Below are positions 29,550 through 46,633 of a DNA stretch of 64,000 bases, piece by piece. The position numbers and the translations under genes were made by a program. The notes under the pieces are model-generated. The model worked only from the letters and a program-made list of their open reading frames with translations. It searched no databases and had not been told where the DNA came from. Each line of letters opens with the position of its first letter. The stretch's first letter is position 1. The DNA comes from Azospirillaceae bacterium (GTDB taxonomy: Bacteria; Pseudomonadota; Alphaproteobacteria; Azospirillales; Azospirillaceae): positions 62,001 to 126,000 of the forward strand of contig DASQNC010000071.1 of assembly GCA_035645145.1 (NCBI GenBank), written 5' to 3'.

Positions 29550-29784
29550 TTGGCCGGAGTTGGCGAAGAAATTGCGGTACTCGGCCGGGGTGAAGCGCTC
29601 CAGCGCGCGGGCGATGGCGGACCAGAGGTTGCCGACGGTGCGGGCGGCCCGCAGCAGGGTCTTGAGCTTGGCGAAGGCCTGCTCGATGGGGGGAATTCGG
29701 GTGAACAGGGCGGCAGGTACAGCACCGAGGCCCCACCGCCGCAACCACCCGCTCCCACAGGTCCTCGGACAGCCATCGTCCCAT
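29550..29784 (-). mobile_element. IS630-family transposase remnant, internally deleted
   Basis: MGRWLSEDLWERVVAAV at 29784 is the N-terminus of IS630 transposases. The sequence then jumps, with frame changes, to SVLYLPPCSPEF and PPIEQAFAKLKTLLRAA, the region holding the last acidic residue of the DDE triad, and ends TPAEYRNFFANSGQ, the usual IS630 C-terminus. About 250 central residues are missing. No terminal repeats were identified. Confidence 0.8.
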
Positions 29785-29811: not shown

Positions 29812-29985
29812 GGTGAATTGCAAAAGCTCTGGCCCTGGATCAAGCATCTGTTCGCTGACGGCGCCTTTGGCTGGGCTCATGGACAGGGCTGCTTTCCTTG
29901 GCCTCATCATCAAGGTCGTACGCCGTCTTGAGAGAACTGGGCGCATCCAAGCTCTGTCCCGCCGCTGGGTGGAGCGGATTATTTT
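29812..29985 (+). mobile_element. IS5-type transposase C-terminal remnant
   Basis: LQKLWPWIKHLFADGA in one frame continues as LAGLMDRAAFLGLIIKVVRR then IQALSRRWVERIIF in the next. Together these match the C-terminal part of IS5-group transposases (FADGAY... RRWVVERTF). One residue of the RRWVVERTF motif is lost and the sequence stops where fhuB ends. Opposite in orientation to the IS630 remnant and abutting it. Confidence 0.75.
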
Positions 29986-32049
29986 TCAAAAGGACTCCGA
30001 GGATTTGCGGGAGTGCACCCGGCTTCGGGTTAGCAGGGCAATGAAGTAGACGCCCCCGAGCACCGAGGCGACCATGCCGGTCGGGAGCTGCGCCGGATAG
30101 ATCATGATCCGCGCCAGCCAGTCCGACAGAAGCAACAAGCCAGCGCCAACGAGAGCCGAAACTGCGAGTTGGGCCCTGGCGCTCCTCGCACCAAGCAGCG
30201 CCGCCATGTGCGGAGCAAGCAATCCGATGAACGCAACGGGCCCGATGACGGAGGTCACAAGCGCCGTCAGCAGAGCCGCGATCATCAGAAGGACGAGGCG
30301 CGCTTGTCCGACCGGCAGTCCCCGTGCGGAGGCTATTGCGTCGCCTACCGAGATCAGCGTCAGCCAGCGATGCAGCAACAGGCCCACTGCACAGACCATG
30401 AGCACGGCGAAGAACAGAAACAGCGCGTCATCCGCGGCGACGGGATACGTCGAGCCGTTCAGCCAGTTCAGGATGGCGAATGCGGCATTACTCCCCGATG
30501 CAAGGAGGAACTGGACGAGGGCATCCATCAGGGCGGCAATCGATATGCCGACGAGGGCCATGATCCCGGGCGAGAAGTCATGCCGTCGTCCAAGGACGAT
30601 CAGCAGGAGCAGGACGACGGTGCTGCCGAGCAACGCTCCGAGGGCGCCGCTTTCGAAGATCGATCCCCCCCAAAACACGACGCCTGCCACGAGAGCGAGC
30701 GTGGCTCCCTGTGACATGCCCATGATATCGGGGCTGGCGAGGGGGTTCCTGAGCAATCGCTGGAGAATGACCCCGGCGACGGCCATGCCCATGCCGGCGG
30801 CAAGGGCAGCCAGCATGCGCGGCCATCGTAGCGCGAGCACGGTCTGGCCGGGCAGTTCCATGATCCATCCTGCCTGGGAAGGCGCAACCATCAACGCAAC
30901 GGCGATAATGAGGGCGATGAGCGCAAGCAGGATGCCCATAGCTGCGCCACCGAGGCGTGTCCGCCCCTCGATCAGCCCGAAGGCCGTATGATCCTTGGCC
31001 GTCAAGGATTTGCGGGTCAACAGGATCAGCGCCGGAGCGCCGATGAGCGCCGCGCTCGCCCCGCTCGGGACAAGATTGGCCGTGAGGCGGCTTGCCAACA
31101 GCGCGATGCTGTCCGTCATCAGCAGCAGTGCTGCACCTGCAAGGAGGCTGGACACCATCTCGTCGAGGCTATTCCGGACGCCAAGTCCACGCGCAACATT
31201 GGGCGCAAGGAGTGCGACGAAGCCGATGATCCCGACAGCGGTCACCGCGCTGGCGGTGATCCAGAGGCACACGGCCAGCAGTGACAGAAGGACTGGCCAA
31301 ACCGGCAGCCCGCGCGCTGCTGCGCCCTCTTCGCCCAGGCGCAGGAGCGTCAAGGGCCGCGGCGCGGCCGCCAGGAGAAGGAGCCCGATCGCGACTCTGG
31401 GTGCAAGCCACATCACCCACGTCCAGTCGGTCTGGGTCAGATCGCCTGTCCTCCAGACAAGAAGGCCCTTCGCAAACTCCCGGTTGAGGAGCACCAGGCC
31501 GCTGGCAATCGACACGAACAGGATGTTGACCGCCATGCCCGCGAGCACGATCGGCAGCCCGCCAATGCCGGACCGTCCCGCGATCAGCATGACCAGCCCC
31601 GTTGCGAGGACCGCCCCCGTCATGCTGAACCATTCGCCATGGCTCGCGGCGAGATCGGGAGCGTAGATCGTTACGATCACCAGGGCGAGCCAAGCCCCCG
31701 ACGAGGTGCCCATGGTCATTGGTGAGACGAGCCTGTTCTGAAGTGCCTGCTGGAGCACGCTGCCGACAAGGCCCAGAGCTGCGCCGATCATGGCCGCGAG
31801 CACGGCGCGCGGCAGCGCCGCGAACAGGAAGCGCGCATCCTCGAACGCCGCCGGCTCGGCTCCCATCAGGAGTTCCAGACGGCGTGACAGGTCAACCCCG
31901 CTGCCGAGCTCGGCATGCAGGAGGAAGGCCAGAACCAGTGCGGCAGCTGTCGCTGCATAGCGGGCAGCAGCGCTGCCGAGTCCCTGCACCCTCCCGGACC
32001 AGGCGCCCGCTCCGGAATGGGGAGCCGCCGACGGAGGGCGGGCCGGCAT
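29986..32049 (-). CDS. fhuB: Fe(3+)-hydroxamate ABC transporter permease FhuB (fused double permease)
   Basis: 687 residues with two FecCD-type halves of about 330 residues: the first has LGLVGSVLQQALQNRLVSPM, the second GMGMAVAGVILQRLLRNPLA, both the conserved permease loops. About 20 membrane segments. This fused arrangement is specific to FhuB. It imports siderophore-iron across the inner membrane with FhuC and FhuD. The ATG at 32049 is 8 bases after the fhuD stop. The C-terminus abuts the IS5-type remnant. GC is clearly lower than in genes outside the island. Confidence 0.9.
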   Translation of the reverse strand: MPARPPSAAPHSGAGAWSGRVQGLGSAAARYAATAAALVLAFLLHAELGSGVDLSRRLELLMGAEPAAFEDARFLFAALPRAVLAAMIGAALGLVGSVLQQALQNRLVSPMTMGTSSGAWLALVIVTIYAPDLAASHGEWFSMTGAVLATGLVMLIAGRSGIGGLPIVLAGMAVNILFVSIASGLVLLNREFAKGLLVWRTGDLTQTDWTWVMWLAPRVAIGLLLLAAAPRPLTLLRLGEEGAAARGLPVWPVLLSLLAVCLWITASAVTAVGIIGFVALLAPNVARGLGVRNSLDEMVSSLLAGAALLLMTDSIALLASRLTANLVPSGASAALIGAPALILLTRKSLTAKDHTAFGLIEGRTRLGGAAMGILLALIALIIAVALMVAPSQAGWIMELPGQTVLALRWPRMLAALAAGMGMAVAGVILQRLLRNPLASPDIMGMSQGATLALVAGVVFWGGSIFESGALGALLGSTVVLLLLIVLGRRHDFSPGIMALVGISIAALMDALVQFLLASGSNAAFAILNWLNGSTYPVAADDALFLFFAVLMVCAVGLLLHRWLTLISVGDAIASARGLPVGQARLVLLMIAALLTALVTSVIGPVAFIGLLAPHMAALLGARSARAQLAVSALVGAGLLLLSDWLARIMIYPAQLPTGMVASVLGGVYFIALLTRSRVHSRKSSESF

Positions 32050-32057
32050 TCCGACGC

Positions 32058-32960
32058 TCAAGGCTTCGCCTTCATGAGCGCATCGGCGAAGGCCTCCGCC
32101 AGGAGCCCGACCGAGAATGGTCCGCCGAATGTCCAAGTCGACGGAATAGAGGTGAACCGTCCGCCCTTGACGAAAGGCATGAACGCCCAAAGCTGGGTCG
32201 AGAACACGTTCTCGGCCTGCGGGAACGGCTCGATATGGATGACGTAACCATCCTTCGCCTGACTGAGCTCCTCGATCTTGCGCAGGGCGAAGCCCCAGGT
32301 GGAGGGGGCCTGGGGAAAGCCGTTCTCAATCCCCAATGCCTCGAGCGCATACTGCGCCATCGAGTTGGCGCCATGGACACGCACGCGCGAGCCGTCGATG
32401 AAACGGGCCGGCGTGACCTTCGGCAGCTTGCCCTGGAAATGGTCGGACAATTTGACCTTGAGGGCGGAGAGCCGTTGATCGAGATCGTCGAGACGCCGCT
32501 GCGCGAGTTCCTCACGGCCGAAGAGCCTGGCGAGAACCTTGTAGATCTCGCGCGAGGCCAGATAGTTGTTGTGATCCTCCTTGAACGCGTCGAAGTGAAG
32601 AACGGGCGCAATGGCCTCAAGCTTTGCAACGAATGCATTCTGCTCGTCGCTGGCGAGAATGAGATCGGGCCTGAGCTCGGCGATTTTCTCGAGATTAGGC
32701 TCCTGTCTGGTTCCGACGTCGTCGACCCCGTCCGGCAGGTGCGGACGCACTACCCAAGTCCTGTAGCCCTTGCTGTCGGCGATTGCCACAGGTGTGATGT
32801 CGAGTTGGAGCACCTGCTCGACAAGCTCCCAACTTAATACGATGACACGCTCCGGGGGCTTGGCGAAGTCCTGCGGTCCACGACTGTCCGAGACGGTAAC
32901 AGCGAAGACGGGGAATGGGAGAGAGAGAAGGAGTGCCAGCACAGAGACGGCGAGTTTCAA
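32058..32960 (-). CDS. fhuD: siderophore-iron ABC transporter substrate-binding protein (FhuD-like)
   Basis: 300 residues with a signal peptide MKLAVSVLALLLSLPFPVFA. The mature part starts VTVSDSRGPQDFAKPPERVI and has SWELVEQVLQLDITPVAIAD, ELRPDLILASDEQN and RFIDGSRVRVHGANSMAQYA, matching FhuD/FepB-type class III binding proteins. It presents the ferric siderophore to FhuB in the periplasm. Placed between fhuC and fhuB as in fhuACDB operons. Specific siderophore not deducible. Confidence 0.88.
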   Translation of the reverse strand: MKLAVSVLALLLSLPFPVFAVTVSDSRGPQDFAKPPERVIVLSWELVEQVLQLDITPVAIADSKGYRTWVVRPHLPDGVDDVGTRQEPNLEKIAELRPDLILASDEQNAFVAKLEAIAPVLHFDAFKEDHNNYLASREIYKVLARLFGREELAQRRLDDLDQRLSALKVKLSDHFQGKLPKVTPARFIDGSRVRVHGANSMAQYALEALGIENGFPQAPSTWGFALRKIEELSQAKDGYVIHIEPFPQAENVFSTQLWAFMPFVKGGRFTSIPSTWTFGGPFSVGLLAEAFADALMKAKP

Positions 32961-32970
32961 AGGGACGATC

Positions 32971-33771
32971 CTATCGATTCACGATCGCAATCTTTTTGGC
33001 GATCAAGGGATGGTCGACGAGATGAATGTCGACGTCGTAGAGACCGGACAGCAGGTCGGATGACAACAGCGCATCGCTCGAACCGTCGAAGGCCACTTCG
33101 CCATGCCTGAGGGCGATGATCCGGTCCGCATATCGGGTCGCGAGATTGACGTCGTGGAGCACGACGACGATGCCCTTGCCCGCATGGCGGTTCAGGGTCG
33201 AGAGCAGCGCCATCAGGTCATACTGATGACCGAGATCAAGTGCGGACGTCGGCTCGTCGAGCAGCAGGAACGGCGACTGCTGGGCCAGCAGCATGGCGAT
33301 CCAGGCGCGCTGACGCTCGCCGCCGGACAGATGATCGACCAGTGTTTCCGCATGCGGCTCGACATGCGTGAGCGCCATCGCCTCATTGACGGCGCGCCTG
33401 TCCTCACTGCGCCAGTGCCCGAGGGTGCCGCGCCAGGCGAAGCGGCCGAGATAGACGAGTTCCCTCACCGTCAGTCCGGCGACATTGGGTAGCCGTTGCG
33501 GCAGGTAGGCGATGGCGCGGGCCAGGTCGCGCTGGGACAGCTCATGCAGAGGCTTGCCGTCGAGGCTGACCGTGCCTTCATCCGGGCTCGCCTGGCGCGC
33601 GAGGATATTCATCAGTGTCGACTTGCCGGAGCCGTTGTGGCCGAGGATCACGGTCAGATCCGAGCGCACGATCACCAGGCGGTCGGCCTTGAGAACCCTG
33701 CGTGAGCCACGCCTGATGCTCAGGCCGGCGACCTCGATCGTGTTCACGGCCGGAATGAATGCGCTAGGCAT
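32971..33771 (-). CDS. fhuC: siderophore-iron ABC transporter ATP-binding protein (FhuC-like)
   Basis: 266 residues: Walker A GHNGSGKST, Q-loop YLPQRLP, signature LSGGERQR and Walker B LLLDEPTSALDLGHQ, followed by the switch His in VVLHDVNLATRYAD. This is the FecE/FhuC-type ATPase that drives FhuB. The ATG at 33771 overlaps the end of the fhuF gene by 8 bases. fhuD begins 10 bases after its stop. Confidence 0.92.
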   Translation of the reverse strand: MPSAFIPAVNTIEVAGLSIRRGSRRVLKADRLVIVRSDLTVILGHNGSGKSTLMNILARQASPDEGTVSLDGKPLHELSQRDLARAIAYLPQRLPNVAGLTVRELVYLGRFAWRGTLGHWRSEDRRAVNEAMALTHVEPHAETLVDHLSGGERQRAWIAMLLAQQSPFLLLDEPTSALDLGHQYDLMALLSTLNRHAGKGIVVVLHDVNLATRYADRIIALRHGEVAFDGSSDALLSSDLLSGLYDVDIHLVDHPLIAKKIAIVNR

Positions 33772-34549
33772 GATGCTCCCAGTATTCCTTCTGTCGGCAC
33801 AGGCGGACCTCCTCGCTCTGCTGCGTCGGGCAGGAGGGGCAAATGGCTCCATTGGCGCAGAGATAGGCCATGCAGCATGCTCTGCGCTCCAGGACCAGTT
33901 GCTCGCGCCCGCAGGAGAGTGTGATTGGCCTGAGCGCGCTCATAGATTCGAGGCCGGCGGCTTCAAGCCAGGCACAGGCGTAATCCTGCAACTCCGCGTT
34001 TCCAAAGCTGGCGTCGAGCCGTCCGAGGCGGAGAAGGAGACCGAGGAGTCTGTCCGCCAGAAGCCGCCTTGCGGTGGTCCGCTTCACAGTCGCGAACTCG
34101 TGCCTGTTGGTCTCCTTGGCGAGGCGGCTCATATCGGCCATCAGGGTTTCCGCAAGCTCCTGGAGCTGACAGCCCGCCTCGCGGATCAGGTGCTTTGTCG
34201 TCCCACGGGCACAGTGCGGCGACGGCAGGCGGAACCCGCCGATGCCTTCCGGTCTAAGGCGCTGGCTCATGCCGCCCACCTTCGGCAGCAACGAAAAACG
34301 GTGGACGGCCAGGAGGGCGATTGCGACCGGCTGCCAGTTGAGATGGTTCCAGCAGCTTGCGGACCAGAAGGCGGCCCCTGCCTCGAGATGGCCGTCTCTG
34401 ATAGTGCCATATAGCTGCCGCAACGCAGCACGGTTGTCCGCGCCAGGTGATACCCAGCCCGTGGAATGGCCTCCCACCTCACCGTGGAGTATTGGCACAA
34501 AGCCTGCCGCGGCCTCGAACAGATCTTCGAGGTTCGCATTGTCCGCCAC
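33764..34549 (-). CDS. fhuF: siderophore-iron reductase FhuF-like
   Basis: 261 residues. The C-terminal RRACCMAYLCANGAICPSCP holds the CC-x10-C-x2-C motif that binds the unusual [2Fe-2S] cluster of FhuF. FWSASCWNHLNWQPVAIALL matches the central region of the family. FhuF reduces ferric iron from imported hydroxamate siderophores in the cytoplasm. It is first after the receptor gene and overlaps fhuC. Confidence 0.85.
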   Translation of the reverse strand: MADNANLEDLFEAAAGFVPILHGEVGGHSTGWVSPGADNRAALRQLYGTIRDGHLEAGAAFWSASCWNHLNWQPVAIALLAVHRFSLLPKVGGMSQRLRPEGIGGFRLPSPHCARGTTKHLIREAGCQLQELAETLMADMSRLAKETNRHEFATVKRTTARRLLADRLLGLLLRLGRLDASFGNAELQDYACAWLEAAGLESMSALRPITLSCGREQLVLERRACCMAYLCANGAICPSCPTQQSEEVRLCRQKEYWEHHA

Positions 34550-34616
34550 GATACGACGCCTGTTCCGCTGGTGAAGGTATTCCCTCCGGTCTTACGATAG
34601 GCCGGAGAGTTTTCCA

Positions 34617-36746
34617 TTACAGTTTGCGGCTCAACCTGAGGCTAATTGTCCGGCGTTCGCCGTAATAGCAATCCCCACGGCCGAGACACGAAGTCAGGTA
34701 GATCTCATCCGCGATGTTCTGGATGTTGAGCTTGGCGGAGTAGTGCTCGGTCTCATACCCGATCTGCGCGTCGAAGAGCGTGTAGGACGGGATGACGTGA
34801 TTGTTCCGGCCATCGAAGCTCTCGCCGACGTAACGCACGCCGGTTCCCACAACGAAACCGCGAAGTGCCGCATGGCGCGGCCGGTAGGTCAACCATGCGG
34901 AGGCCTGGTTTTCCGGCACGCTGGCAAGCGCGAAGCCGGTCGCTTTGTCCTCGGTCTCGAGATGGGTGTAGCTGGCGAGGAGCTCAAAATCATAGATCGC
35001 CGTCTGGATATCGAACTCGACGCCCTGAATGGCCGCTTCGCCGGTCTGAACATAGACTGGCTTCCCTGGGCCGTAATTAGGGTTGTTCACCTGCCGATTC
35101 TTTTGGTTGAGGTTGAACACGGAGGCCGTGAGAAGGGTCGGGATCCCCGGAATCTGGTACTTGACGCCTGCCTCGATCTGTTCGCCTTCGCTCGGAGCGT
35201 AGCGGAAGCCGAAACTGTCCGGCGCGAGCGGATCGAACGAGGTGGTATAGCTGACATAGGGCGCAATACCGGTGTCGAACTTGTAGAGAAGCCCGGCGCT
35301 GCCGGAGAACTTACCGGCCTCTGTGGCGAGTAGAGACGAGTCGCGGGTCGTCTGCGAGTAAGTATCGTGTCGGGCTCCGAGTGAGATGAACAGCTTGTCG
35401 TTGATGGACATGCGATCAATGACATAGAAACCGAGCTGCTCAATGTCCTGCTTCGGATTATTGATGCGCGCAAATGCCGGGATCCGGGCACCGTAAACCG
35501 GCGTAATCAGGTCGATAGGCGGCAGAGCGGCATACCCGACATCGCTATCAAGAGTGGCGTTCTGGTAGTCGAAGCCTGCCACTGCCTGGTGTCTGACGAA
35601 GCCGGTCGCGAAGTCTGCCCCAAGGCGTGCGTCGCTGACGAAGGACCTGGCATTATTGCGGGCGGAATAGAGTGTCCGGCGTCGCGACCGGCCGTCCGCT
35701 TCATAAGGAACGCCGAAGGCGGGCCAGATGTGGTCGTAGGCAGTCGAACTGACGGAATAACGCGCCCGCGCGTCGATGCTGAAGATCTCGTTGATGCGAT
35801 GTTCCAAGATGCTCGTGACGGCTACTCCTTCGGGAATGTATTTGTCGAAGCCTGGCTCTCCGAAGAACTGGTGCGTTCCGATGAAATGGCCGCTCGGCGT
35901 CGGCAGCAGACTTCCCTGAATAGGCACGTAGCGCGATGTTGCCTGGCCGTCGTCCCTCTGGAAATTGCCCAGCACCGTGAGGCGCGTGTCATTCGTGGGC
36001 TGCCAAGCGAACGAGGGCGCGAGGACCAGGCTGTCGTCATCGACATGGTTGACCTGCGTTCCGCTGTCCCGGCCGATGCCGATGACCCGGTACTGCATGG
36101 TGGCCGCCGAATCAATCGGCCCTGTCAGGTCGAATCCGAGCTGCTTGCGGTTGAAGCTGCCGTACTCGACGAAGACCTCGTTGTTGCGCACCGGCTCGGG
36201 CCGCTTGCTGATCAGGTTGACGACGCCGCCTGTCGCGTTCGCGCCATAGAGGACCGAAGCCGGCCCCTTGATGACGTCCACACTTTGGAGTGTGAAGGGA
36301 TTGATGCGGGGATTGTTGTAGAAGCCGAAATTGGAGCGGAGGCCATTGACGAGCTGAAGGGGCGCGATGCCGCGGATGAAGGAGTAATCCCCGCGCGTGT
36401 CCCGGCCATAGGCAGCGCTATAAACGCCGGGAACGTAGAGCAGAGCATCATCGACATCCTGCACGCCCTGGTCCTCGAGACGCTGCTCCGTCACGACGCT
36501 GACCGAACGAGGCGTCTCAACAATGGGCGCTTCCAGTTTGGTGGCGGTATTCGAGGAGGTGGCAATCGCCGCTCCCTTTTCCCCGCCCGACTGCTGAACG
36601 CTCCCGCTTTCGGCTTCGACAACAATAGGGTCGAGTTCAAGGGCCTCTTGAGCATTCGTAGGACAGGCAGCACCGAGCAGAAGGGCCGTCGAAACGCCTG
36701 AGCGCAGGATGAATTTCCGCGCCGCGAAGGTGCTCATTGTACTCAC
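34617..36746 (-). CDS. TonB-dependent siderophore receptor
   Basis: About 709 residues. The signal peptide follows VSTMSTFAARKFILRSG, and the plug domain has ETPRSVSVVTEQRLEDQGVQ, DYSFIRGIAPLQLVNGLRSN and VLYGANATGGVVNLISKRPE, typical of FhuA/FoxA-type receptors. The barrel ends RTISLRLSRKL; the last residue is Leu rather than the usual aromatic residue. The GTG at 36746 is preferred because AGAAGGA lies six bases upstream; the ATG three codons later (36737) is too far from it. First gene of the lower-GC fhu island. Confidence 0.92.
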   Translation of the reverse strand: MSTMSTFAARKFILRSGVSTALLLGAACPTNAQEALELDPIVVEAESGSVQQSGGEKGAAIATSSNTATKLEAPIVETPRSVSVVTEQRLEDQGVQDVDDALLYVPGVYSAAYGRDTRGDYSFIRGIAPLQLVNGLRSNFGFYNNPRINPFTLQSVDVIKGPASVLYGANATGGVVNLISKRPEPVRNNEVFVEYGSFNRKQLGFDLTGPIDSAATMQYRVIGIGRDSGTQVNHVDDDSLVLAPSFAWQPTNDTRLTVLGNFQRDDGQATSRYVPIQGSLLPTPSGHFIGTHQFFGEPGFDKYIPEGVAVTSILEHRINEIFSIDARARYSVSSTAYDHIWPAFGVPYEADGRSRRRTLYSARNNARSFVSDARLGADFATGFVRHQAVAGFDYQNATLDSDVGYAALPPIDLITPVYGARIPAFARINNPKQDIEQLGFYVIDRMSINDKLFISLGARHDTYSQTTRDSSLLATEAGKFSGSAGLLYKFDTGIAPYVSYTTSFDPLAPDSFGFRYAPSEGEQIEAGVKYQIPGIPTLLTASVFNLNQKNRQVNNPNYGPGKPVYVQTGEAAIQGVEFDIQTAIYDFELLASYTHLETEDKATGFALASVPENQASAWLTYRPRHAALRGFVVGTGVRYVGESFDGRNNHVIPSYTLFDAQIGYETEHYSAKLNIQNIADEIYLTSCLGRGDCYYGERRTISLRLSRKL

Positions 36747-37073
36747 TGGTAGTCCTTCTGTTGGTTTCATCGTTGCTTTAGGCGCGGACCTGTCGGTAGA
36801 ACCCTCCGACATTCGGACCATTCTGCCTTTTCGGGTTGTTGTCTCAGGATTTGCCGAACTGATCGGTTGCGCTCGACCTCCTCATCAAAGGTTGAAGTGT
36901 AGGGGCGCCGAAGGTGAGCTGCTGTTGCGGTATGGCCTCCGAGGCCGCGGGAAGGCTGGTTCCGGGAGCGGCGGCCAGAGCCGCCCGATCCAGGGCAGAA
37001 TTCCCTGTGCCCGCGCCAGTCCCGGATGGAAGCCGGGGCCGCTGCCACCGCGCCACCCGTGTTCCCACGCGAC
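36747..37073. other. region without a recognised gene upstream of the receptor
   Basis: It holds the presumed promoter of the fhu receptor, but no copy of the TGCRA-N11-TCGCA operator found at the neighbouring iron genes. From about 36900 the GC content returns to the chromosomal level, marking the edge of the lower-GC island. The left flank of the fecC fossil probably fades into this stretch. Confidence 0.5.
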
Positions 37074-37337
37074 GAGGAGGCCCGGCCCTGCCACGCTCGG
37101 ACTCGCACCGACCACGGGCGCCAGGACGGGGCGCGGCAGAAGCAGTGCACGGATTACGTGTTGGCTTTGCGAGCCGTCGAAACCGGTCGACGCCTGCCAG
37201 ACTGCGACCGGGCCATAGCTGCGCAAGCCCAGGGACGGGCTCCGGGGCTGGGCGACCGTAAGCGCTGCAGCCAAACCAAGGGCCGATCGTCGCCATCCGC
37301 CTTCGGTTCCGCGACGGACGGTCATGGGAGGGGTCAT
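37074..37337 (-). pseudogene. fossil of a FecCD-type permease N-terminus
   Basis: WQASTGFDGSQSQHVIRALL and LPRPVLAPVVGASPSVAGPG align with WHALTAFDGSQDHRVVRELR and LPRAVLASVAGSSLGVAGVL of the intact permease gene at 44604-45617, same strand. About 90 residues remain, with substitutions at key glycine and membrane positions, and nothing recognisable follows. It is divergent from the FecB-like fossil just as the intact genes are. Confidence 0.82.
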
Positions 37338-37350
37338 GCCGGATCCGATC

Positions 37351-37383
37351 TGATACTGCAAATGATTCTCATTCGCAGTATCA
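37351..37383. promoter_or_regulatory. iron-responsive operator copy in the fossil locus
   Basis: TGCAA-ATGATTCTCAT-TCGCA at 37357-37377 matches the 21-bp sequence found at three functional iron promoters here. It is embedded in a longer dyad: TGATACTGC (37351-37359) and GCAGTATCA (37375-37383). It lies between the two divergent fossils, in the same place as the operator at 45636. Confidence 0.75.
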
Positions 37384-37444
37384 CGCGAGGTGGTGAATGT
37401 CCACCGCCACACCCGCGAATTCATGGTGCCCACGCAGGATCCCC

Positions 37445-37903
37445 ATGCGCCTGCTTCGGGCTGCGATCATGTCGCTGCTGCTCCTCGGCGCCCTTGCACA
37501 GGGGGACGGCCCGTACCGTCACCCATGCCATGAACCGGACCCGGGTTCCCGGGCTCCGAAGCGGGCGGTGGTGCTGACCAACGAGGGGACCGAGGCGCCC
37601 CTGGCGCTGGGGGTGGTACCTGCTGGTGCCGTTAAGTCATGGCTCGGCGAGCCGTGGTACGGCCACATCGCCCACGCAATGGCGGGAGTCGAAAGTGGTC
37701 GGCACGGAGCACGCGGTGAACCTGGGGCCGGTGGTGGCCCTGCAACCGGACCTGATCCTCGGCACCGAACAACGCCAAGGTCGCGGCGCTTTCAGTGGCG
37801 CTTGGCGATCGCAAGCGGGAGCGCATCTCCCTTGTGCGCTTCATGCCGGGTGGTGCGCGCATCCACCATAAGGACACGTTCGCCGGCGTCATCCTCGGCC
37901 AGC
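37445..37903 (+). pseudogene. fossil of a FecB-like binding protein
   Basis: MRLLRAAIMSLLLLGALAQG, KRAVVLTNEGTEAPLALGVV and AVKSWLGEPWYGHIAHAMAG follow the intact protein at 45719-46633 closely, then the frame shifts. The next recognisable piece, ALGDRKRERISLVRFMPGGA and KDTFAGVILGQ, appears near 37795 in another frame after a deletion of about 60 residues. The 3' part is missing and is replaced by a dctP fragment. Confidence 0.88.
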
Positions 37904-37920
37904 CGGTTGCCCAGCTGGGC

Positions 37921-38046
37921 GCCTCGGCCGCCCGCGCCGCCGACGGGCCGTACGAACGGAAGCGCAGGCCCCGGCGCGGCGGCCACGGCACCGCGTACAG
38001 CACGCGGATGACCTGACTCTTCAGTTGCGCTTCGACCAGCGGGCGA
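37921..38046 (-). pseudogene. dctP fragment with internal deletion
   Basis: The minus strand reads RPLVEAQLKSQVIRVLYAVP, then WPPRRGLRFRSYGPSAARAA, nearly identical to the intact dctP (RPLVEAQLKGQGIRVLYAVP and MRGLRFRSYGPSAARFGE) but with 15 residues between them deleted. It has the same orientation as dctP at 28400, 9 kb away. No other part of a TRAP operon is present here. Confidence 0.85.
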
Positions 38047-38111
38047 TGGACGCCGCCGTTTCCGGGCGGTGCCGCCGACCGTCGGCTACGTCCCCGCAGC
38101 CCGTCCAGCCG

Positions 38112-40274
38112 CTACCATTTCAGGGCGTAGGAAACCGTGAACGTCGTTCCGGGTGCTCTTACGTGGCTGGTATTGCCCCCGTCCGGCAGGAGTTGGGCAT
38201 GGACGGGATGGTAGTCGGCGTTCAGCAGATTGGCGATCCCGAGATTGAGCGTGCCGGGCCCGACCTCGAAGCTGGAAATCAGGTCCACCACCAGGAAGTC
38301 GTCGATTTCCTGGCCGGCGAAGCCGACGCCGGCATTGTGGGCGCGGTCGCGCACGCCCGAATACAGGAACTGAAGCCGGTTGCGCCAGCCGTCCGCGGGC
38401 GCGTACTCGGCATAGCCCGTGATCTTGATCGGCGGGATCCGGGTCCCATTGAGGGGCACGTAGTTGCCGTCCAGGTCGGCGTCGTTCTCGCCTTCGGTGA
38501 AGGTCAGGGTGCCTCCCAGGGTCCACTGATCGGAAACCGCCGCGTCCAATGCCAGTTCGAGGCCGTATGTCCGTTCCGGCGCACGCACCACGGTCGCGGT
38601 GAAGCCATTGGACGAGGCTCCCAGTTCCGACTCGGTGTAGAAGGCCGTGACGCTGCCTGTGAGAACGCCCCAGGTCGCGCGCGTGCCGACCTCGTAATTG
38701 TCCACCTTGATCGGCAGGAGCGTTGCCGAGTTCAGGGAGAAGCCACGCGGCGCGCCGCGCAACACAAGGCCCACATCCGGAAGCGAGAAGCCCTGCGACC
38801 AGTTGGCGAAGACGTCCACGTCCTTGGTCAGGTAGTAGACGGCACCGAGATTGAGGAGCGTGTCCGAGTAGCTCGCCGAGCCCGCGGCGATGCGGTTGCC
38901 TTGGCCAAGAGTGGTGAAATCGTCGTGCTCGGCCTTGATGAATTCCTGGCGGAGTCCGGCCCGTAGCACCAGATCATTGGTCGCCTGCCATTCGCCCTGG
39001 GCGAACAGGCCGACGGACGTGTGGGTAACCGGCGGCACGAAGGTGCGGTCGCCCAACTTGCGGAAGATCCGGCCGCTCGATGCGGCGAACACGGCGGGAT
39101 CGTAGACCGTGGCGGGCTGGGCCGTCTCTTCCCTGTTGTAGTCGACGCCCCACAGGATCGTCAGGTCGTCCTTGCCGACCAGATTGACGGGCGTCTCCAA
39201 TGCGACACGACCTCCGACGGTCTCGGATTCGAGGTAGGTCTGCGCGGCACTGTTCCAGACGGGAAGCGCCCGGCCGTCGAACGGGTAGAAGCGGGTCCGG
39301 TAGTCGCGGTGGTACGCTTGGGCGTGCAGCCGGCTGCCCAGCACGTTGCCGTGCTCGTAGTCGAGGCTGGCCAGGGTGTTGACGGTTTCGGGCTGGTCGG
39401 CCAGGACGAGGCCCTTGGTGGCGCGGGCCTTGACCCCTCCGCGCGGAAAAGCGACGACCGAGCGGTCCGACAGGTAGTCCGTATCCTGCTGCGTATCCAG
39501 GTGGTTGAATGTCAGGCTGAGCCGCTGCTCGTCCGACAGGCTCACCCCGATCTTGCCCAGCAGATTGAGTTTCCTGGTGTCCGAGAGGTCGCCCTGGCTC
39601 GGGTCGGGGGGGATGCGGTCGCCCTCGGCGTCGAAGAAGCCGCCGGTTTTCTCGGCCGCCGCCCTGAAGGTGTAGTCCACCTTGCCGAGGCCGCCGGTCA
39701 CACCCTGCTGGATCCGCCCGGAAAGGGCGTCCAGTCCGGGGTTCGTGAGCGAAGTGGTGAGACCGGCCTCGGTGTCGAAGACCGGCGCCGGCCCGCCGGC
39801 CTTGCGGGTGATGATGTTGATGACGCCGCCCGAAGCGCCGTTGCCGTAGATGGCCGTTGCGCCGCGCACGACCTCGACCCGTTCGACCGCGGCAGGGTCG
39901 ATGGTGAAAAGATCGCGCGAGACGTTGCGGGTGGTCGTCTGCGGCACGCCGTCGATCAGGACCAGGATGTTGCGGCCGCGAAGGGTCTGGGTCGAATTGG
40001 TGTTGCCGTGGGTGCTCGTCGCAAGCCCCGGAACCTCACGCGCCAGGATTTCGGATAAGCTGCGGGTCACCTTGGATTGGCGGGCGATCTCCTCACGGTC
40101 GATGACGGTGACCGAGCCCGGGATCGATTTGATGTCCTCCACACTGCGGGTCGCGCTTACGACCACGGATGGCAGTTCGTAGGTCGTCCCCTGCGCCGCG
40201 GCGGCGGTGGGGAGCAGGAAGGGCAGCGCGAGCGGGGCGAGCCAGGGGGCGCCCGTGGGGGTCTTTCGGGTCAT
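38112..40274 (-). CDS. TonB-dependent receptor
   Basis: 720 residues with a signal peptide ending TAAAAQ. The TonB box region ELPSVVVSATRSVEDIKSIP precedes a plug with VTRSLSEILAREVPGLATST, TLRGRNILVLIDGVPQTTTR and VRGATAIYGNGASGGVINII. The C-terminus ends in an aromatic residue (SYALKW), normal for barrel assembly. It takes up a ferric siderophore or similar iron complex across the outer membrane. Its start lies 76 bases downstream of an iron-type operator, and tonB-exbD-exbB are immediately upstream on the same strand. Confidence 0.93.
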   Translation of the reverse strand: MTRKTPTGAPWLAPLALPFLLPTAAAAQGTTYELPSVVVSATRSVEDIKSIPGSVTVIDREEIARQSKVTRSLSEILAREVPGLATSTHGNTNSTQTLRGRNILVLIDGVPQTTTRNVSRDLFTIDPAAVERVEVVRGATAIYGNGASGGVINIITRKAGGPAPVFDTEAGLTTSLTNPGLDALSGRIQQGVTGGLGKVDYTFRAAAEKTGGFFDAEGDRIPPDPSQGDLSDTRKLNLLGKIGVSLSDEQRLSLTFNHLDTQQDTDYLSDRSVVAFPRGGVKARATKGLVLADQPETVNTLASLDYEHGNVLGSRLHAQAYHRDYRTRFYPFDGRALPVWNSAAQTYLESETVGGRVALETPVNLVGKDDLTILWGVDYNREETAQPATVYDPAVFAASSGRIFRKLGDRTFVPPVTHTSVGLFAQGEWQATNDLVLRAGLRQEFIKAEHDDFTTLGQGNRIAAGSASYSDTLLNLGAVYYLTKDVDVFANWSQGFSLPDVGLVLRGAPRGFSLNSATLLPIKVDNYEVGTRATWGVLTGSVTAFYTESELGASSNGFTATVVRAPERTYGLELALDAAVSDQWTLGGTLTFTEGENDADLDGNYVPLNGTRIPPIKITGYAEYAPADGWRNRLQFLYSGVRDRAHNAGVGFAGQEIDDFLVVDLISSFEVGPGTLNLGIANLLNADYHPVHAQLLPDGGNTSHVRAPGTTFTVSYALKW

Positions 40275-40349
40275 GTCGGGCCATTCCTAGGAACCGGCCG
40301 CGGTGGCGGCCGGGAAATGGTGGTTCGGGGCGGTCCGGGTCAAAGGTAG

Positions 40350-40370
40350 TGCGAATGATTATCAATCGCA
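40350..40370. promoter_or_regulatory. iron-responsive (Fur-like) operator upstream of the TonB-dependent receptor
   Basis: TGCGA-ATGATTATCAA-TCGCA, a 21-bp near-dyad with an ATGATTATCA core resembling half of a Fur box. It lies between the tonB stop and the receptor start. The same arrangement occurs upstream of exbB and between fecB and fecC. Confidence 0.8.
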
Positions 40371-40414
40371 TGGCTTTGTCAAGCCGACTTCGGCAAGCCG
40401 TCCGCACCTCCGCG

Positions 40415-41287
40415 TCAGCGCAGGGCGTATTCCACCGGCACCACGATCTCGACCAATTCCTGCCCCGAGTCGGGCGGCAGGGCCGGCAAAGGCGAAGCGC
40501 CTGCGACAAGCGCAACCGCCGCCTCGTCGAGGGCCTCGTGACCGGAACTGCGGTCCAGGCGGACCGACCGCACGTTCCCCTGCCGGTCGAAGGTGAACCG
40601 GACATGTGCCACGCCCTGCTGCCGGCGGCGCTCGGCCGCGCGCGGGTATTGCTTGCGCCGCTCCAGGTGCCTGAGCAGCAGCCCCTGCCAATTCGACGAT
40701 GCCGGGCTCGGCGCCGCGGACGGGGTGCCGACGCCCGCCGCCGCGGACGGCGGTGGCGACGCCGATTGCGGCGGGGCGGCCGGAGCCTCGGCCGTGGGGG
40801 CGGGGACGCCGGCCTCGGGCGATGTGTTTGCGCGTGCCGGTGCGGCATGGCGGGGGAGCGCCGGCTTTTCCGGCTGCGGTTCCCGGCGGTGCTGCGGCGG
40901 CTTGGGTTTGGGCGGTGGAACGGCGGCCGGGACCGGCGATACCGGCGGCGCAGGCATCGGAACCGGCTCGGGGATCGGAGTCGGTTCGGGTGGGGTGGGG
41001 TCCGGCTCCGGTGCGGACCCGGTGGTCTCCTGCCGCATCGGCCGGGGCTCGTCGGCCGGTGCGGGATCGGAAGCGGTCGGCGTCCCCACCGCCGGTGCGG
41101 GAGCCGCCCAGGGAAGGGCGAGGTCGATCGCCACCGCGGTTGCGATTGCCGGTTCGACGGGCCTTTGCCAGAGCATCGAAGCGACGCCCCCCGCCATGTG
41201 AACGGCCAACGCCACGAGAAGGCTGGCGCCCCAGCGGAGCCGGCGTCCGCCGAACCAAGGGTCCATGGCGGGGTGCAGCCCGGTCAT
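40415..41287 (-). CDS. tonB: TonB energy transducer
   Basis: 290 residues. One N-terminal membrane segment (WGASLLVALAVHMAGGVASM, with the His of the transmembrane helix) is followed by a long Pro-rich periplasmic span (PPEPTPIPEPVPMPAPPVSP, PPPKPKPPQ). The C-terminal domain has RKQYPRAAERRRQQGVAHVR and DRSSGHEALDEAAVALV, the TonB fold. It transmits proton-motive energy from ExbBD to outer-membrane receptors. Its ATG overlaps the exbD stop (ATGA). Confidence 0.94.
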   Translation of the reverse strand: MTGLHPAMDPWFGGRRLRWGASLLVALAVHMAGGVASMLWQRPVEPAIATAVAIDLALPWAAPAPAVGTPTASDPAPADEPRPMRQETTGSAPEPDPTPPEPTPIPEPVPMPAPPVSPVPAAVPPPKPKPPQHRREPQPEKPALPRHAAPARANTSPEAGVPAPTAEAPAAPPQSASPPPSAAAGVGTPSAAPSPASSNWQGLLLRHLERRKQYPRAAERRRQQGVAHVRFTFDRQGNVRSVRLDRSSGHEALDEAAVALVAGASPLPALPPDSGQELVEIVVPVEYALR

Positions 41288-41709
41288 GGACCCGGCGCCG
41301 TCTCCAGCCCGACCAGGGCCACTTTCAGGTAGCCGGCGGTGCGCAGGGCATCCATGACGCCCATGAGTTCGCCGTAGTTCACCTTGCGGTCGGCACGCAG
41401 GAACACGCGCTGCTGGCGGTCGGCCCCGGTCGCGGCGTCAAGCGCCGTTGCCAGTGCTTCGGGGGCGACCGGGCCGTCGCCCAACACCAGCGAACCGTCG
41501 GCCTGCAAGGTGAGGAACAGCGGTTTGTCCGGTCGGGGCTGCGGGGCGGCGGTGGAGGCCGGCAGCTCGACCGGCACGTCCACGGTCGCGAGCGGGGCCG
41601 CCACCATGAAGATGATCAGCAGCACCAGCATCACGTCGATGAACGGGGTGACGTTGATCTCGTGGTGCTCGACGAGATCGTCGTCGCCGGGATTCAGCCT
41701 GACGCCCAT
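41284..41709 (-). CDS. exbD: biopolymer transport protein ExbD
   Basis: 141 residues. [20 protein letters not shown] is the single membrane helix with the proton-accepting Asp, followed by [10 protein letters not shown] and a periplasmic domain with [20 protein letters not shown]. It works with ExbB as the proton channel energising TonB. It starts 4 bases after the exbB stop and overlaps tonB. Confidence 0.95.
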
Positions 41710-41713
41710 CGCC

Positions 41714-42550
41714 CTACTCCGCGGCGTTCCGGGTCCGCACCTCGGCCCGGTCGAGGTCGCGGGAGACCAGGCCCATGATTTCGGCCGAGGCGTCGGAGAG
41801 GAACCCCTTGTAGCCCGCGATCGTCCGGGCAAAGACGTTGTAGACCACCACCGCGGGGATCGCCGCGACCAGGCCGATGGCGGTGGCGAGCAGCGCCTCG
41901 GCGATGCCGGGCGCGACGACGGCCAGATTGGTGGTCTGTGCCCGGGAAATGCCGATGAAGCTGTTCATGATGCCCCAGACCGTGCCGAACAGCCCCACGA
42001 AGGGGGCGGTCGCCCCGATGGTGGCCAGCACGCCGGTTCCGGCGGCCATGCTCCGGGCGGCCTGTGCCTCGATGCGTTGCAGGCGCCAGGCGATGCGTTC
42101 CTTGATGCCGTCCGGTTTCCGCGTATCCGCCGACAGGTGCAGCTCCTGCGCGGCGGCGCGTGCCAATGCCGATGCCGCATCGCGCCGGGACTCGAGGCGT
42201 CCGGAGGCTTCCGCCAGCGTGCGCGCCGCGGCCAGGACCGCCAGGGCGTCGCGGGCCTGGCGTTTGGCGGCGGACAGCTCGAGGCCCTTGGCGAGCCACA
42301 CGGTCCAGGTGAGCACGGACGCCAACGCCAGCCCGGCCATGACCGCCTTCACCACCCAGTCGGCGGCCAGGAACATGCCCCAAGGCGACAGGTCGTGCGG
42401 CAATGCCGCCGCAAGGGGCGCCATGCCGGGGGGCGCGGCCGGGGTGGCGGACACGGGCTGGGCGGCGGCCATGGACGGCCAAGCCAAGACGATGGCCCAA
42501 GCCAAGGCCATGGCGCGGTGCACGCCGATCCTTCTGCCGATCACGCTCAT
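41714..42550 (-). CDS. exbB: biopolymer transport protein ExbB
   Basis: 278 residues. A signal-like N-terminus ends at SMAAAQ, the long-form ExbB architecture; three membrane segments follow, with [20 protein letters not shown] and [20 protein letters not shown] forming the conserved channel helices. It pairs with ExbD. The ATG at 42550 has GGAGG ten bases upstream; a Fur-like operator lies 137 bases upstream. First gene of exbB-exbD-tonB. Confidence 0.95.
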
Positions 42551-42686
42551 GTCCTGCGGCCTCCATAGGCGCCATCGCAAGGAATTCCGCGCGCACCCGG
42601 GCCCTCCCCGGCACGGTCCGGGGACAAGGGGGCGGTGCACGGGTGCGCGGAACCCGCGCCGGTTGCTACCGCCGAAAGGGCATGTT

Positions 42687-42707
42687 TGCAAGTCATTCTC
42701 ATTCGCA
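42687..42707. promoter_or_regulatory. iron-responsive (Fur-like) operator upstream of exbB
   Basis: TGCAA-GTCATTCTCAT-TCGCA, sharing outer arms with the other three copies and the TTCTCATTCGCA half with the fossil copy. It is in the gap between the end of the FecE-like ATPase gene and exbB. Confidence 0.75.
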
Positions 42708-42734
42708 TCCTGGCGTGCCCGACCGGCCGGACCC

Positions 42735-43553
42735 CTATTCGGCCGCCCGCCGCACGCTGGACGCCGGCTGCGCCTTGCCCATCGCGATGCAGAGCGGGGT
42801 GCCGTGGACCGGATCGACGATCACGCGGCTTTCGACGCCGAAGACGTCGCGCATCAGCGCCTCGTCGATCAGCGTGGCCGGCGGGCCCTCGGCATGGACG
42901 CGGCCGTCCTTCAGCACGATCAGGTGGTCGGCGTAGCGCGCGGCGAGATTGATGTCGTGCAGGACGACGACCAGGGTGCGCCCCTGTTCCCGGTTGAGCC
43001 GCCGCACCAGGTCCAGGCAATCCAGCTGGTGCGCCAGATCGAGATGGTTGATCGGCTCGTCCAGGCAGACGACCGGGGCATCCTGCGCAAGCACCATGGC
43101 GAGCCACACCCGCTGCTTCTGCCCGCCCGACAGCGCGTCCAGACGGCGGTCGAGCAGATCGCCGATTTCGGTCGCCGCCACGGCGGCGGCGACGGCGTGC
43201 GCATCCTCGGGCGACCACTGCCGCAGGAAGGTCTGGTGCGGGAAGCGGCCGAGCTTCACCAGATCGTGCACCGTCAGGTCGTCCGGGGCCGTCGGGGTCT
43301 GGGTGAGCATGGCGACCCGGCGGGCGAGGTCGCGCTCGGACAGCCGGCGGATATCGACACCGTCCAGCAGGATCGTCCCGGCGCTGGGCGGCAGCAGCCG
43401 GCGGATGCCGCGCAGCAGGGTCGACTTGCCGCAACCGTTCGGCCCGGCCAGCACCGTGACCCGGCCCGCCGGCAGCGTCAGGGCGAGATCGCGCAGGACG
43501 ATGCGGGCGCCATGGCCGAGGGTGACGTTGTCCAGGGTCAGCAGGTCAGCCAT
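42735..43553 (-). CDS. iron complex ABC transporter ATP-binding protein (FecE-like)
   Basis: 272 residues: Walker [11 protein letters not shown], signature LSGGQKQR, Walker [16 protein letters not shown] and switch [21 protein letters not shown] in place of the usual TSHLDL is a small variation. It powers the two FecCD-type permeases encoded just upstream; its ATG overlaps the second permease by 8 bases. The C-terminal 30 residues extend past the usual end. Confidence 0.93.
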
Positions 43554-44604
43554 CGCTGCGCATCCGGCGGGTGAGGAGAAGGAGCATGTAGGGGGCGCCG
43601 ACGAGGGCCGTCACGGTGCCGGCGGGGACCTCGATCGGGGCGAAGGCGATCCGGACCGCCAAGTCGGCGCCGATCACCATGACGGCGCCGAGCAGGGCCG
43701 CGGCGGCGAGGTTGGCGCCGGCACCGGGGCCGGCAATGCGGCGTGCCAGATGCGGCGCGATCAGGCCGACGAAGCCGATGCCGCCGACGAAGGCCACCGA
43801 CACCGCCGTGAGCGCCGCCGCCAGGACGACGGCGAGCAGCCGCACCCGCGGCGCCGGCAGTCCGGCCGCCCGTGCGGTGTCGTCGTCGAGGTCCAGCGGA
43901 TCGAGCCGGCGGGCCATGGCGGCGGTGGCGCAGAGCAGCACGACCAGGGGTCCCGCCACCATGCGCACCTCGGCCCAGGTCGCGGTGTTGACGGCGCCGG
44001 CCAGCCAGTGCATGGCCTGGCTCGCCCGGTGGATGGGGCCGACGACCAGCAGAAGGGTGATCCCGGCCTTGGCCAGGGCGGCCAGGGCCATGCCGAACAG
44101 GATCAGCCGGACCGGTGCCGCCTGCCCGCGGGCCAGCAGGAAAACGGCCGCGACCAGCGCCAGACCGCCCAGCAATGCCGCCAGCGGCTGCCAGTGGGCC
44201 CCGACCGTGGGCGCGCCGCCACCGTCGCCGAAAGCCGTCAGGAACAGCACGGCGCCAAGGCCGGCGCCGTCCACCACCCCGAGCACGCCGGGCGAGGCCA
44301 GCGGGTTGCGCGTTGCCCGCTGGAGCAGGACGCCGGCGACCGCCAGGCAGATGCCGGCCTGGGCGGCCTGCAGCGTCCGTGGCAGGCGGAACTGGCCGAT
44401 GATGAGTTGGTCGGTACGGGGACCGTTGCCGAGGAGCGCATCGACGACGCGTGCCAGCGGCATCGTCGTGCTGCCGGTCGCGATGGAGGCGACGAAGACC
44501 GCCGCCAGGAGCACCGCCAGGCCCGCGATGGCCAGCTGCGCCCGTGGGCGCAGCTGCCGGGAGAAGCGGCCGAGTCGGAAGGTGGCGTACATGGCCGCTC
44601 CCAT
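43546..44604 (-). CDS. iron complex ABC transporter permease 2 (FecD-like)
   Basis: 352 residues starting MGAAMYATFRLGRFSRQL. AGICLAVAGVLLQRATRNPL and the following ASPGVLGVVDGAGLGAVL, plus FVGGIGFVGLIAPHLARRI near the end, are the FecCD signature blocks. About ten membrane helices. Its ATG overlaps the stop of permease 1 (ATGA), so the pair are coupled. Confidence 0.93.
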   Translation of the reverse strand: MGAAMYATFRLGRFSRQLRPRAQLAIAGLAVLLAAVFVASIATGSTTMPLARVVDALLGNGPRTDQLIIGQFRLPRTLQAAQAGICLAVAGVLLQRATRNPLASPGVLGVVDGAGLGAVLFLTAFGDGGGAPTVGAHWQPLAALLGGLALVAAVFLLARGQAAPVRLILFGMALAALAKAGITLLLVVGPIHRASQAMHWLAGAVNTATWAEVRMVAGPLVVLLCATAAMARRLDPLDLDDDTARAAGLPAPRVRLLAVVLAAALTAVSVAFVGGIGFVGLIAPHLARRIAGPGAGANLAAAALLGAVMVIGADLAVRIAFAPIEVPAGTVTALVGAPYMLLLLTRRMRSDG

Positions 44605-45617
44605 CAGGCCAGACGCCGGCGCAGCAGCAGCACCAGCACCGGGGCGCCGATCAGGGCGGTTACGGCGCCGACCGGGGCCTCGCCGGGGTGGATGACGAAA
44701 CGGGCCGCGACATCCGCACCGACCCCCAGCAGCGCGCCCGCCACGGCGGCGACGATGATGCGGTCCCGGTGATGCGGTCCCGCCAGCCATCGGGCGGCAT
44801 GCGGCGCCACCAGCCCGATGAAGCCGACCGGTCCGGCGATGGCGACGGCGCCGCCGGTCAGTGCGGCCGTCGCCAGGAAGGCGAGGCTGCGCACGCGGTG
44901 CAGCGGCACCCCCAGGTTGCGGGCGGTATCGTCGTCGGTGGCCAGGGTGTCGAGCGGCCGGGCCACGGCGAGGGCGGCGAGGAGGCCCAGTCCCAGGATC
45001 CAGCCGTTGGCGGCCGCCAACTGCAAGGGCCGCCCCTCGAACGAGCCGGCCAGCCAGAACAGCAGTTGCTCCAGCGACGCCTCGTCGGTCGTCAGAACCA
45101 CCTCCACCAGCGACATCAGCAGCCCGGCGAAGGTCATGCCGGCGAGAACCGTGCGGGCCGGCGACATCGCACCGCCCGACACCGCGACCCCATAGACGGC
45201 GAGCGCCGCCATCAGCGCCCCGCCGGCCGCCGCCGCGGAAAGGGCGGTCAGTCCATCGACGCCGAGCCAGACGTTCGCGACCACCACCGCCAGCGCGGCG
45301 CCGGCGTTGAGGCCGAGGATGTCGGGCGAGGCGATGCGGTTGCGGGTCAGCGTCTGGATCAGCACTCCGGCCACCCCCAGGCTCGACCCCGCCACCGACG
45401 CCAGGACGGCGCGCGGCAGACGCAGTTCGCGCACCACGCGATGGTCCTGCGAGCCGTCGAAGGCGGTCAACGCGTGCCAGACCTCGGCCGGGCCATGGCT
45501 GTGCACCCCCACCGAGAGGCTCAGCAGCAGGGCGACCACGAGCATCGTGCCCAGGCCCAGGGTCGGTCGCAGCCACCTGCCCCCGATCCCATGGCGGGCA
45601 GCCATGTGCAGACTCAT
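44604..45617 (-). CDS. iron complex ABC transporter permease 1 (FecC-like)
   Basis: 337 residues from ATG 45617. GSSLGVAGVLIQTLTRNRIA, SPDILGLNAGAALAVVVANV and PVGFIGLVAPHAARWLAGPH are FecCD signatures. A TTG five codons upstream (45632) and an ATG four codons downstream (45605) are alternative starts. It is divergent from the FecB-like gene, with an iron-type operator between them. A decayed copy of its N-terminus lies at 37074. Confidence 0.92.
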   Translation of the reverse strand: MSLHMAARHGIGGRWLRPTLGLGTMLVVALLLSLSVGVHSHGPAEVWHALTAFDGSQDHRVVRELRLPRAVLASVAGSSLGVAGVLIQTLTRNRIASPDILGLNAGAALAVVVANVWLGVDGLTALSAAAAGGALMAALAVYGVAVSGGAMSPARTVLAGMTFAGLLMSLVEVVLTTDEASLEQLLFWLAGSFEGRPLQLAAANGWILGLGLLAALAVARPLDTLATDDDTARNLGVPLHRVRSLAFLATAALTGGAVAIAGPVGFIGLVAPHAARWLAGPHHRDRIIVAAVAGALLGVGADVAARFVIHPGEAPVGAVTALIGAPVLVLLLRRRLA

Positions 45618-45635
45618 GCCGGTTCCGGTCAAACT

Positions 45636-45656
45636 TGCGAATGGTTATCAATCGCA
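45636..45656. promoter_or_regulatory. iron-responsive (Fur-like) operator in the divergent fecB/fecC promoter
   Basis: TGCGA-ATGGTTATCAA-TCGCA, differing from the copy at 40350 by one base. It lies 19 bases from the FecC-like start and 63 bases from the FecB-like start, well placed to control both. Confidence 0.82.
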
Positions 45657-45718
45657 CTATCACGGCGGGGTTGCAGGTGTCCACCGTCGCCTGCCGGCGA
45701 AGATGCGGAGATCAACGA

Positions 45719-46633
45719 ATGGTCCATTTGCGCCTGCTCCGGACCGCGGCCCTGTCGCTGCTGGTTCTCGGCGCCCTCGTCCAAGGGGGCCTGGCCCGCA
45801 CCGTCACGCACGCCATGGGCCGGACCGAGGTCCCGGACGCCCCGAAGCGGGTGGTCGTGCTGACCAACGAAGGGACGGAAGCGCTTCTGGCACTGAAGGT
45901 GGCTCCGGTCGGCGCCGTCAAATCCTGGCTCGGCAAGCCGTGGTACGACCACATTGCCCCGGCCATGGCCGGCGTCGAGGTGGTCGGCACCGAACATGCC
46001 GTGAATTTGGAGGTGGTGGCCGCCCTGCAACCGGACCTGATCCTGGGCAACAGGCAGCGCCACGAGGAAATCTATCCGCAGCTCGGCGCCATCGCCCCGA
46101 CCGTCATGTCCGGCACCCTGCGTGGGCGCTGGCAGGAGAATTTCACCCTCTACGCCGAGGCCGTTGGCCGGAGCGTCGACGGCGGGCGGGTGCTGGCCGC
46201 CTTCAATGCCAGGGTCGAGGCACTGTCGGCGGCGCTGGGCGACCGCAGGCGGGAACGTATTTCCCTCGTGCGCTTCATGCCGGGCGGCGCACGCATCTAT
46301 TACAAGGACACGTTTGCCGGCGTGATCCTCGATCAGATCGGCTTCGCCCGGCCGCAAAACCAGGACAAGGCGGCGTTCGCGGACCGGGTGACCAAGGAGC
46401 GCATACCGGAAATGGCCGGCGACCGGTTGTTCTACTACGTCTACGAGACCGGCGACGACAAGGCGACGAGCGCCGAGAAGGAATGGACGGCCGAGCCGAT
46501 GTGGCAGGCGCTGGACGCCGTCAAGGCCGGCAAGGTCCATCGCGTGTCCGATGCGATCTGGAACACGGCGGGCGGCGTCGTCGCGGCCGGTCTCATGCTC
46601 GACGACCTTGCCGCCATCTACGGGATCAAGTGA
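45719..46633 (+). CDS. iron-siderophore ABC transporter substrate-binding protein (FecB-like)
   Basis: 304 residues with a signal peptide MVHLRLLRTAALSLLVLGAL ending near GGLA-RT. The mature part has KRVVVLTNEGTEALLALKVA, EVVAALQPDLILGNRQRHEE and RISLVRFMPGGARIYYKDTF, matching the FecB/CbrA group of class III binding proteins. GATGCGGAGA precedes the ATG at 45719. The ligand is a ferric complex of unknown type. A decayed copy lies at 37445. Confidence 0.92.
   Translation: MVHLRLLRTAALSLLVLGALVQGGLARTVTHAMGRTEVPDAPKRVVVLTNEGTEALLALKVAPVGAVKSWLGKPWYDHIAPAMAGVEVVGTEHAVNLEVVAALQPDLILGNRQRHEEIYPQLGAIAPTVMSGTLRGRWQENFTLYAEAVGRSVDGGRVLAAFNARVEALSAALGDRRRERISLVRFMPGGARIYYKDTFAGVILDQIGFARPQNQDKAAFADRVTKERIPEMAGDRLFYYVYETGDDKATSAEKEWTAEPMWQALDAVKAGKVHRVSDAIWNTAGGVVAAGLMLDDLAAIYGIK

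Follow-up and report, generated by a model that had tools for sequence, protein, structure and literature searches.

Between two iron-uptake systems of an Azospirillaceae bacterium lies about 1 kb of DNA that yields no protein, which raises the question of what this DNA once was and how it came to stand there. The sequence analyzed (the window) is a stretch of 64,000 nucleotides, and the 1 kb in question is placed between a fhu island (29986-36821) and an intact fec locus (38112-46633). A sequence-only reading had described it as a decayed copy of the start of a FecC-like permease gene, an iron operator and a broken FecB-like gene, joined to a piece of dctP. In the present study, the following features were assigned to it:

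37087..37340, minus strand: fecC', a FecCD-type permease gene reduced to its N-terminal ~84-88 codons, 70% identical to intact fecC in DNA and 51% in amino acids
37351..37383, no strand: putative iron operator (Fur-box-like), with 15-nt arms, 14/15 pairs and a 3-nt centre
37430..37769, plus strand: fecB', N-terminal part, aligning to 45710-46054
37770..37902, plus strand: fecB', middle part, beyond a 149-nt deletion and 3'-truncated, with 82% DNA identity to 46204-46335
37932..38045, minus strand: dctP', two dctP pieces joined over an internal 44-nt deletion

The relic was compared with the window by blastn, and four matches were obtained, all of them plus/plus. Positions 37087-37777 matched 45367-46062 (73.4% over ~700 bp, E 7e-112), and 37770-37897 matched 46204-46331 (82% over 128 bp, E 5e-31). 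Two further segments matched dctP, namely 37932-37973 with 28859-28900 (97.6%, E 4e-14) and 37976-38045 with 28945-29014 (91.4%, E 7e-23). The observed scores were 396, 128, 100 and 72 bits, and 30 block-shuffled relics topped out at 35.6 bits. The results bore out the sequence-only reading on the decayed fecC/operator/fecB copy (37087-37902), which matched the intact region at the DNA level beyond the shuffled controls, on the joined dctP piece (37932-38045), and on the shared orientation of the pieces with their intact copies. The start it gave (37074) lay ~13 nt too early. When the whole genome (3.89 Mb) was searched with the relic, no match was observed beyond the same five places, and the relic was carried by 0/59 of the relatives searched. 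Among plasmids, its only DNA relatives were FecB of Rhizobium and Mameliella. No support was found for permease similarity left of 37087, for fecB' homology beyond 37902 or for dctP' homology into its own flanks; ~30 nt at 37903-37931 and 65 nt at 38046-38111 matched neither fecB nor dctP.

The reading frames of fecB' and fecC' were found to be destroyed by indels, a deletion and truncations. The fecC' piece carried no frameshift and was truncated where the fhuA upstream region begins. In fecB', four indels (-1, -2, -1 and +1, three of the four inside the aligned coding part) were observed together with the 149-nt deletion, and the gene stopped at about codon 210, with its C-terminal third missing. 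After frame correction, the amino-acid identity of fecB' and fecB was 79% over 154 codons from both fecB' parts. Together with the DNA-level homology to the functional fecC/fecB locus, non-coding sequence included, these results mark the stretch as a pseudogene relic, most likely what is left of a second fec unit (permease/operator/binding protein).

FecCD permeases and binding proteins form abundant paralogous families, and the null of the sequence-only reading was that unrelated homologues resembled each other at the protein-family level only. The alignment that it had proposed was run, and the similarity proved to be at the DNA level and to continue through the intergenic, non-coding operator; in addition, the relic's next-best relative reached at most 62% amino-acid identity on the same columns, compared with the 79% above. 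These results refuted the null. In a tree with 80+ relatives, based on the columns that the relic retains, the relic was sister to the intact copy (FastTree support 1.0 for FecB and 0.998 for FecB+FecC), and Caenispirillum was the next branch outside this pair in the combined FecB+FecC tree (support 0.88). The N-terminal FecC region was poorly conserved in functional relatives too, at 40-45% identity. By this placement, the relic either is a second copy of the intact fec locus or derives from a close relative outside the sampling.

The intact genes and neighbors of the relic in the window, with two further operators, are as follows:

28400..29374, minus strand: intact dctP (TRAP solute-binding protein; Pfam PF03480, NCBIfam TRAP_S1), the source of dctP'
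29553-29755 and 29825-29930, no strand: remnants of IS630- and IS5-family transposases between dctP and fhuB, by blastn to annotated plasmid IS630/IS5 transposases
29986..36821, minus strand: fhu island (fhuB, fhuD, fhuC, fhuF-like, fhuA), with lower G+C, about 59-67%
38112..45632, minus strand: intact fec locus with TonB-dependent receptor, TonB, ExbD, ExbB, FecE, FecD and FecC (ExbB, ExbD and FecD identified by reading the sequence)
40351-40369: iron operator upstream of the TonB-dependent receptor
42688-42706: iron operator upstream of exbB
45635..46633, plus strand: intact fecB (PF01497), divergent from fecC across an operator at 45637

The fhu genes showed the patchy distribution, G+C drop and mobile-element traces of a genomic island. 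FhuB was absent from 81 other family genomes at E <= 1e-100, and the nearest FhuB found was 42-50% identical, with Vibrio/Photobacterium records among these matches. The IS630/IS5 fragments mark the left (dctP-side) edge of the island; Pfam returned no match for them, and their assignment is by DNA matches to annotated transposases. No insertion-sequence remnants were found on the relic side of the island. A second FhuF-like protein in the island (33767-34549) gave only short C-terminal motif scores, below the cut-off, and a FhuF-like ferric reductase gene (PF06276, 46653-47390) lies directly 3' of intact fecB. Taken as a whole, 29986-46633 holds two adjoining siderophore uptake systems that were found in this form in no other family genome searched, and their side-by-side placement suggests an insertion hotspot. 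In the congener G001, no fec, receptor or FhuB match was observed at the thresholds used, and the contig with its dctP breaks off ~0.5 kb upstream of that gene, within a racemase-like gene (by eye). To judge by eye, this gene, adjoining dctP at 5767-6069 of L138, looks like a member of the aspartate/glutamate racemase family, and the corresponding position in the window is occupied by insertion-sequence debris.

The iron operator that the sequence-only reading had seen in the relic belongs to a set of six. A genome-wide search with the pattern TGCRAATGATTMTCAWTCGCA, allowing <=3 mismatches, returned six sites, and the reversed-pattern control returned 0. The sites lie in the relic, at the receptor, at exbB, between fecC and fecB, and at two places elsewhere, all of them beside iron-uptake genes; the two outside the window are directly upstream of fbpA-like iron-binding-protein and fbpC-like iron ABC ATPase genes (by eye). 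The relic's perfect match to the pattern means little, since the pattern was drawn from window sites, whereas the palindrome count is independent of it: the relic retained 14/15 pairs, the most complete of the four palindromes in the window, and the others retained 8-11. A palindrome that is conserved genome-wide in front of iron-uptake genes has the character of a Fur-type operator, and the relic's copy is a real, Fur-box-like element and a putative regulator site. No similar box was found anywhere in the fhu island.

The ages of the two parts of the relic were then compared. For fecB' and fecB, the NG86 estimates were dS 0.69, dN 0.13 and omega 0.19 (CI 0.11-0.30), and pairwise codon maximum likelihood gave an omega of 0.07, with omega = 0.5 rejected (p = 5e-13). 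Had the relic been decaying ever since the two copies arose, while its twin stayed under constraint and both evolved equally fast, an omega near 0.5 would be expected. Because the pairwise omega of 0.19 is significantly below 0.5, both copies were under constraint for much of the time; and with a dS of ~0.69 at this omega, fec' was probably functional during much of its separate life. Changes polarised by codon position with the Caenispirillum outgroup, where outgroups are saturated, numbered 10/15/17 on the relic branch, a nearly even spread, and 4/4/20 on the intact branch, a skewed one, as relaxation of the relic and constraint on the intact copy would produce. Taken together, these data suggest that the relic first functioned and then decayed. 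Constraint on both copies throughout, as read from the pairwise codon-position bias, was softened, since the intact branch holds much of the third-position excess. A branch codon model with five taxa was set aside; its stem was saturated, its nested models were poorly optimised and the free model scored below a restricted one.

The low synonymous divergence of a recent local duplicate was found for the dctP fragment only. Differences amounted to 98/462 in fecB' vs 7/112 in dctP' (Fisher p = 1e-4), and at third codon positions to 58/154 vs 5/37 (p = 0.006). The dctP' piece was also nearer to its own genome's dctP than to that of G001 (82% over 51 nt). Since only 7/112 sites differ, the dctP scrap is younger than the fec split, although gene conversion could blur this. 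Orthologues of flanking genes in G001 showed 69-76% DNA identity, similar to that of fec' and fec; the fec split therefore goes back about as far as the divergence from this congener.

We consider it probable (about 0.7) that a second fec unit, in tandem with the survivor, was later reduced and that the dctP piece was joined to it afterwards. A second unit would have stood beside the surviving one in the same orientation; the two would have separated long ago, either when a tandem duplication occurred in this lineage or when a close relative's copy was imported, and both would have worked for a good part of their separate time. The left unit would then have been reduced to ~0.8 kb, such that the upstream region of the fhu island now adjoins fecC' at codon ~88 and the 3' part of fecB' is gone. 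The arrival of the fhu island, to which the sequence-only reading tentatively linked the rearrangement, may have caused the loss of the left unit. Later, duplication or templated repair may have attached a short piece of dctP to the broken fecB' end, with 44 nt lost, and the relic operator may remain a binding site for the iron regulator. Two steps are preferred to one event because the ages of fec' and dctP' are unequal, and a single duplication of both parts is disfavoured. The duplication and rearrangement proposed by the sequence-only reading therefore stood as far as the decayed copies are concerned, but not as a single event for all pieces, the fec part being old and the dctP part recent. 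Against the two-step history, FecC' taken alone (NG86 omega 0.50, CI 0.31-0.81) is compatible with decay from birth, but this is the N-terminal region that functional relatives, too, conserve poorly.

The joint of fecB' and dctP' speaks for a single event. One tandem duplication from mid-dctP (28859) to mid-fecB (46335), with the left fec copy lost or replaced by fhu and the right dctP copy trimmed, would produce exactly this joint in order and orientation, and both intact genes are in the window on the correct sides. Only the ages oppose it: the differences reported above are unequal, and dctP', being non-functional, would be expected to change no more slowly than fecB'. The orientation alone has roughly even odds by chance. 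We regard this single duplication as improbable. The origin of the second unit is a separate matter, and import is one branch of the two-step history that we list apart. The absence of fec from all other family genomes searched makes at least one import of the locus probable, and the divergence of fec' and fec is similar to that between congeners, a comparison that rests on one congener. The fec locus of a related species may have been imported beside the resident one, or have displaced it, with subsequent loss. Against this, neither copy has a known relative closer than the other copy, and the plasmid and genome collections yielded no donor. We regard import as possible, at less than even odds. 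The relic is ordinary genome debris with a composite history, except that its operator looks intact.

The main interest of the relic is possible reuse of its operator by the fhu island. A siderophore operon, imported and inserted into the permease gene, could have captured the relic operator and promoter, with transcription running through fecC' into fhuA under iron regulation. The fecC' piece and fhuA share a reading direction, the operator lies ~0.6 kb upstream of fhuA with no terminator-like site between them, the island has no similar box, and the relic palindrome is the most complete in the window; the chance that 14/15 pairs would survive 20% drift is ~0.015. However, recent loss of fec' function would leave the palindrome intact anyway (probability 0.2-0.5 at 6-10% drift), and it explains the state of the operator equally well. 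A 0.6-kb leader is also long, a scan for sigma-70-like promoters there gave none, and fhuA may be driven from 36750-37087 by a separate promoter of another type. Such capture is rather unlikely on balance. Searches of the literature on iron regulons of this group, and on imported iron loci that capture promoters, gave no specific result. Should the operator be in use, the site would offer a clear natural example of an imported operon that came under the iron control of its host by inserting into a regulated resident gene. More generally, the site is a small, readable record of the turnover of iron-uptake loci at one chromosomal position: within 17 kb it combines the relic of a third unit with insertion-sequence debris and with two siderophore systems that few members of the family have.

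The divergent fecC/fecB core is widespread in Alphaproteobacteria, and its layout is conserved in relatives. Compared with the intact fec locus, the relic shows the same fecC/operator/fecB order, orientation and operator type together with DNA-level homology, but it keeps only ~0.8 kb, carries frameshifts and truncations, and has a more complete operator than the intact copy. Caenispirillum salinarum AK4 (L049) has the same receptor-FecEDC/FecB order, a divergent fecC/fecB pair and a similar box, GCGATTGAAAATGATTCGC; it has one intact copy within the stretch examined, and its FecB is 67% identical to the window's intact FecB. The ATPase-permease-permease/fecB modules of Rhizobium and Chelativorans likewise have a divergent four-gene core, with FecB 62-69% identical, whereas no adjoining receptor like that of the window and no similar box between fecC and fecB were found in them. 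Ordinary pseudogene relics at rearrangement junctions likewise show frameshifts, deletions and truncation beside a patchily distributed island; the present relic differs from them in its two joined fragments of mixed age and in an operator that may have survived.
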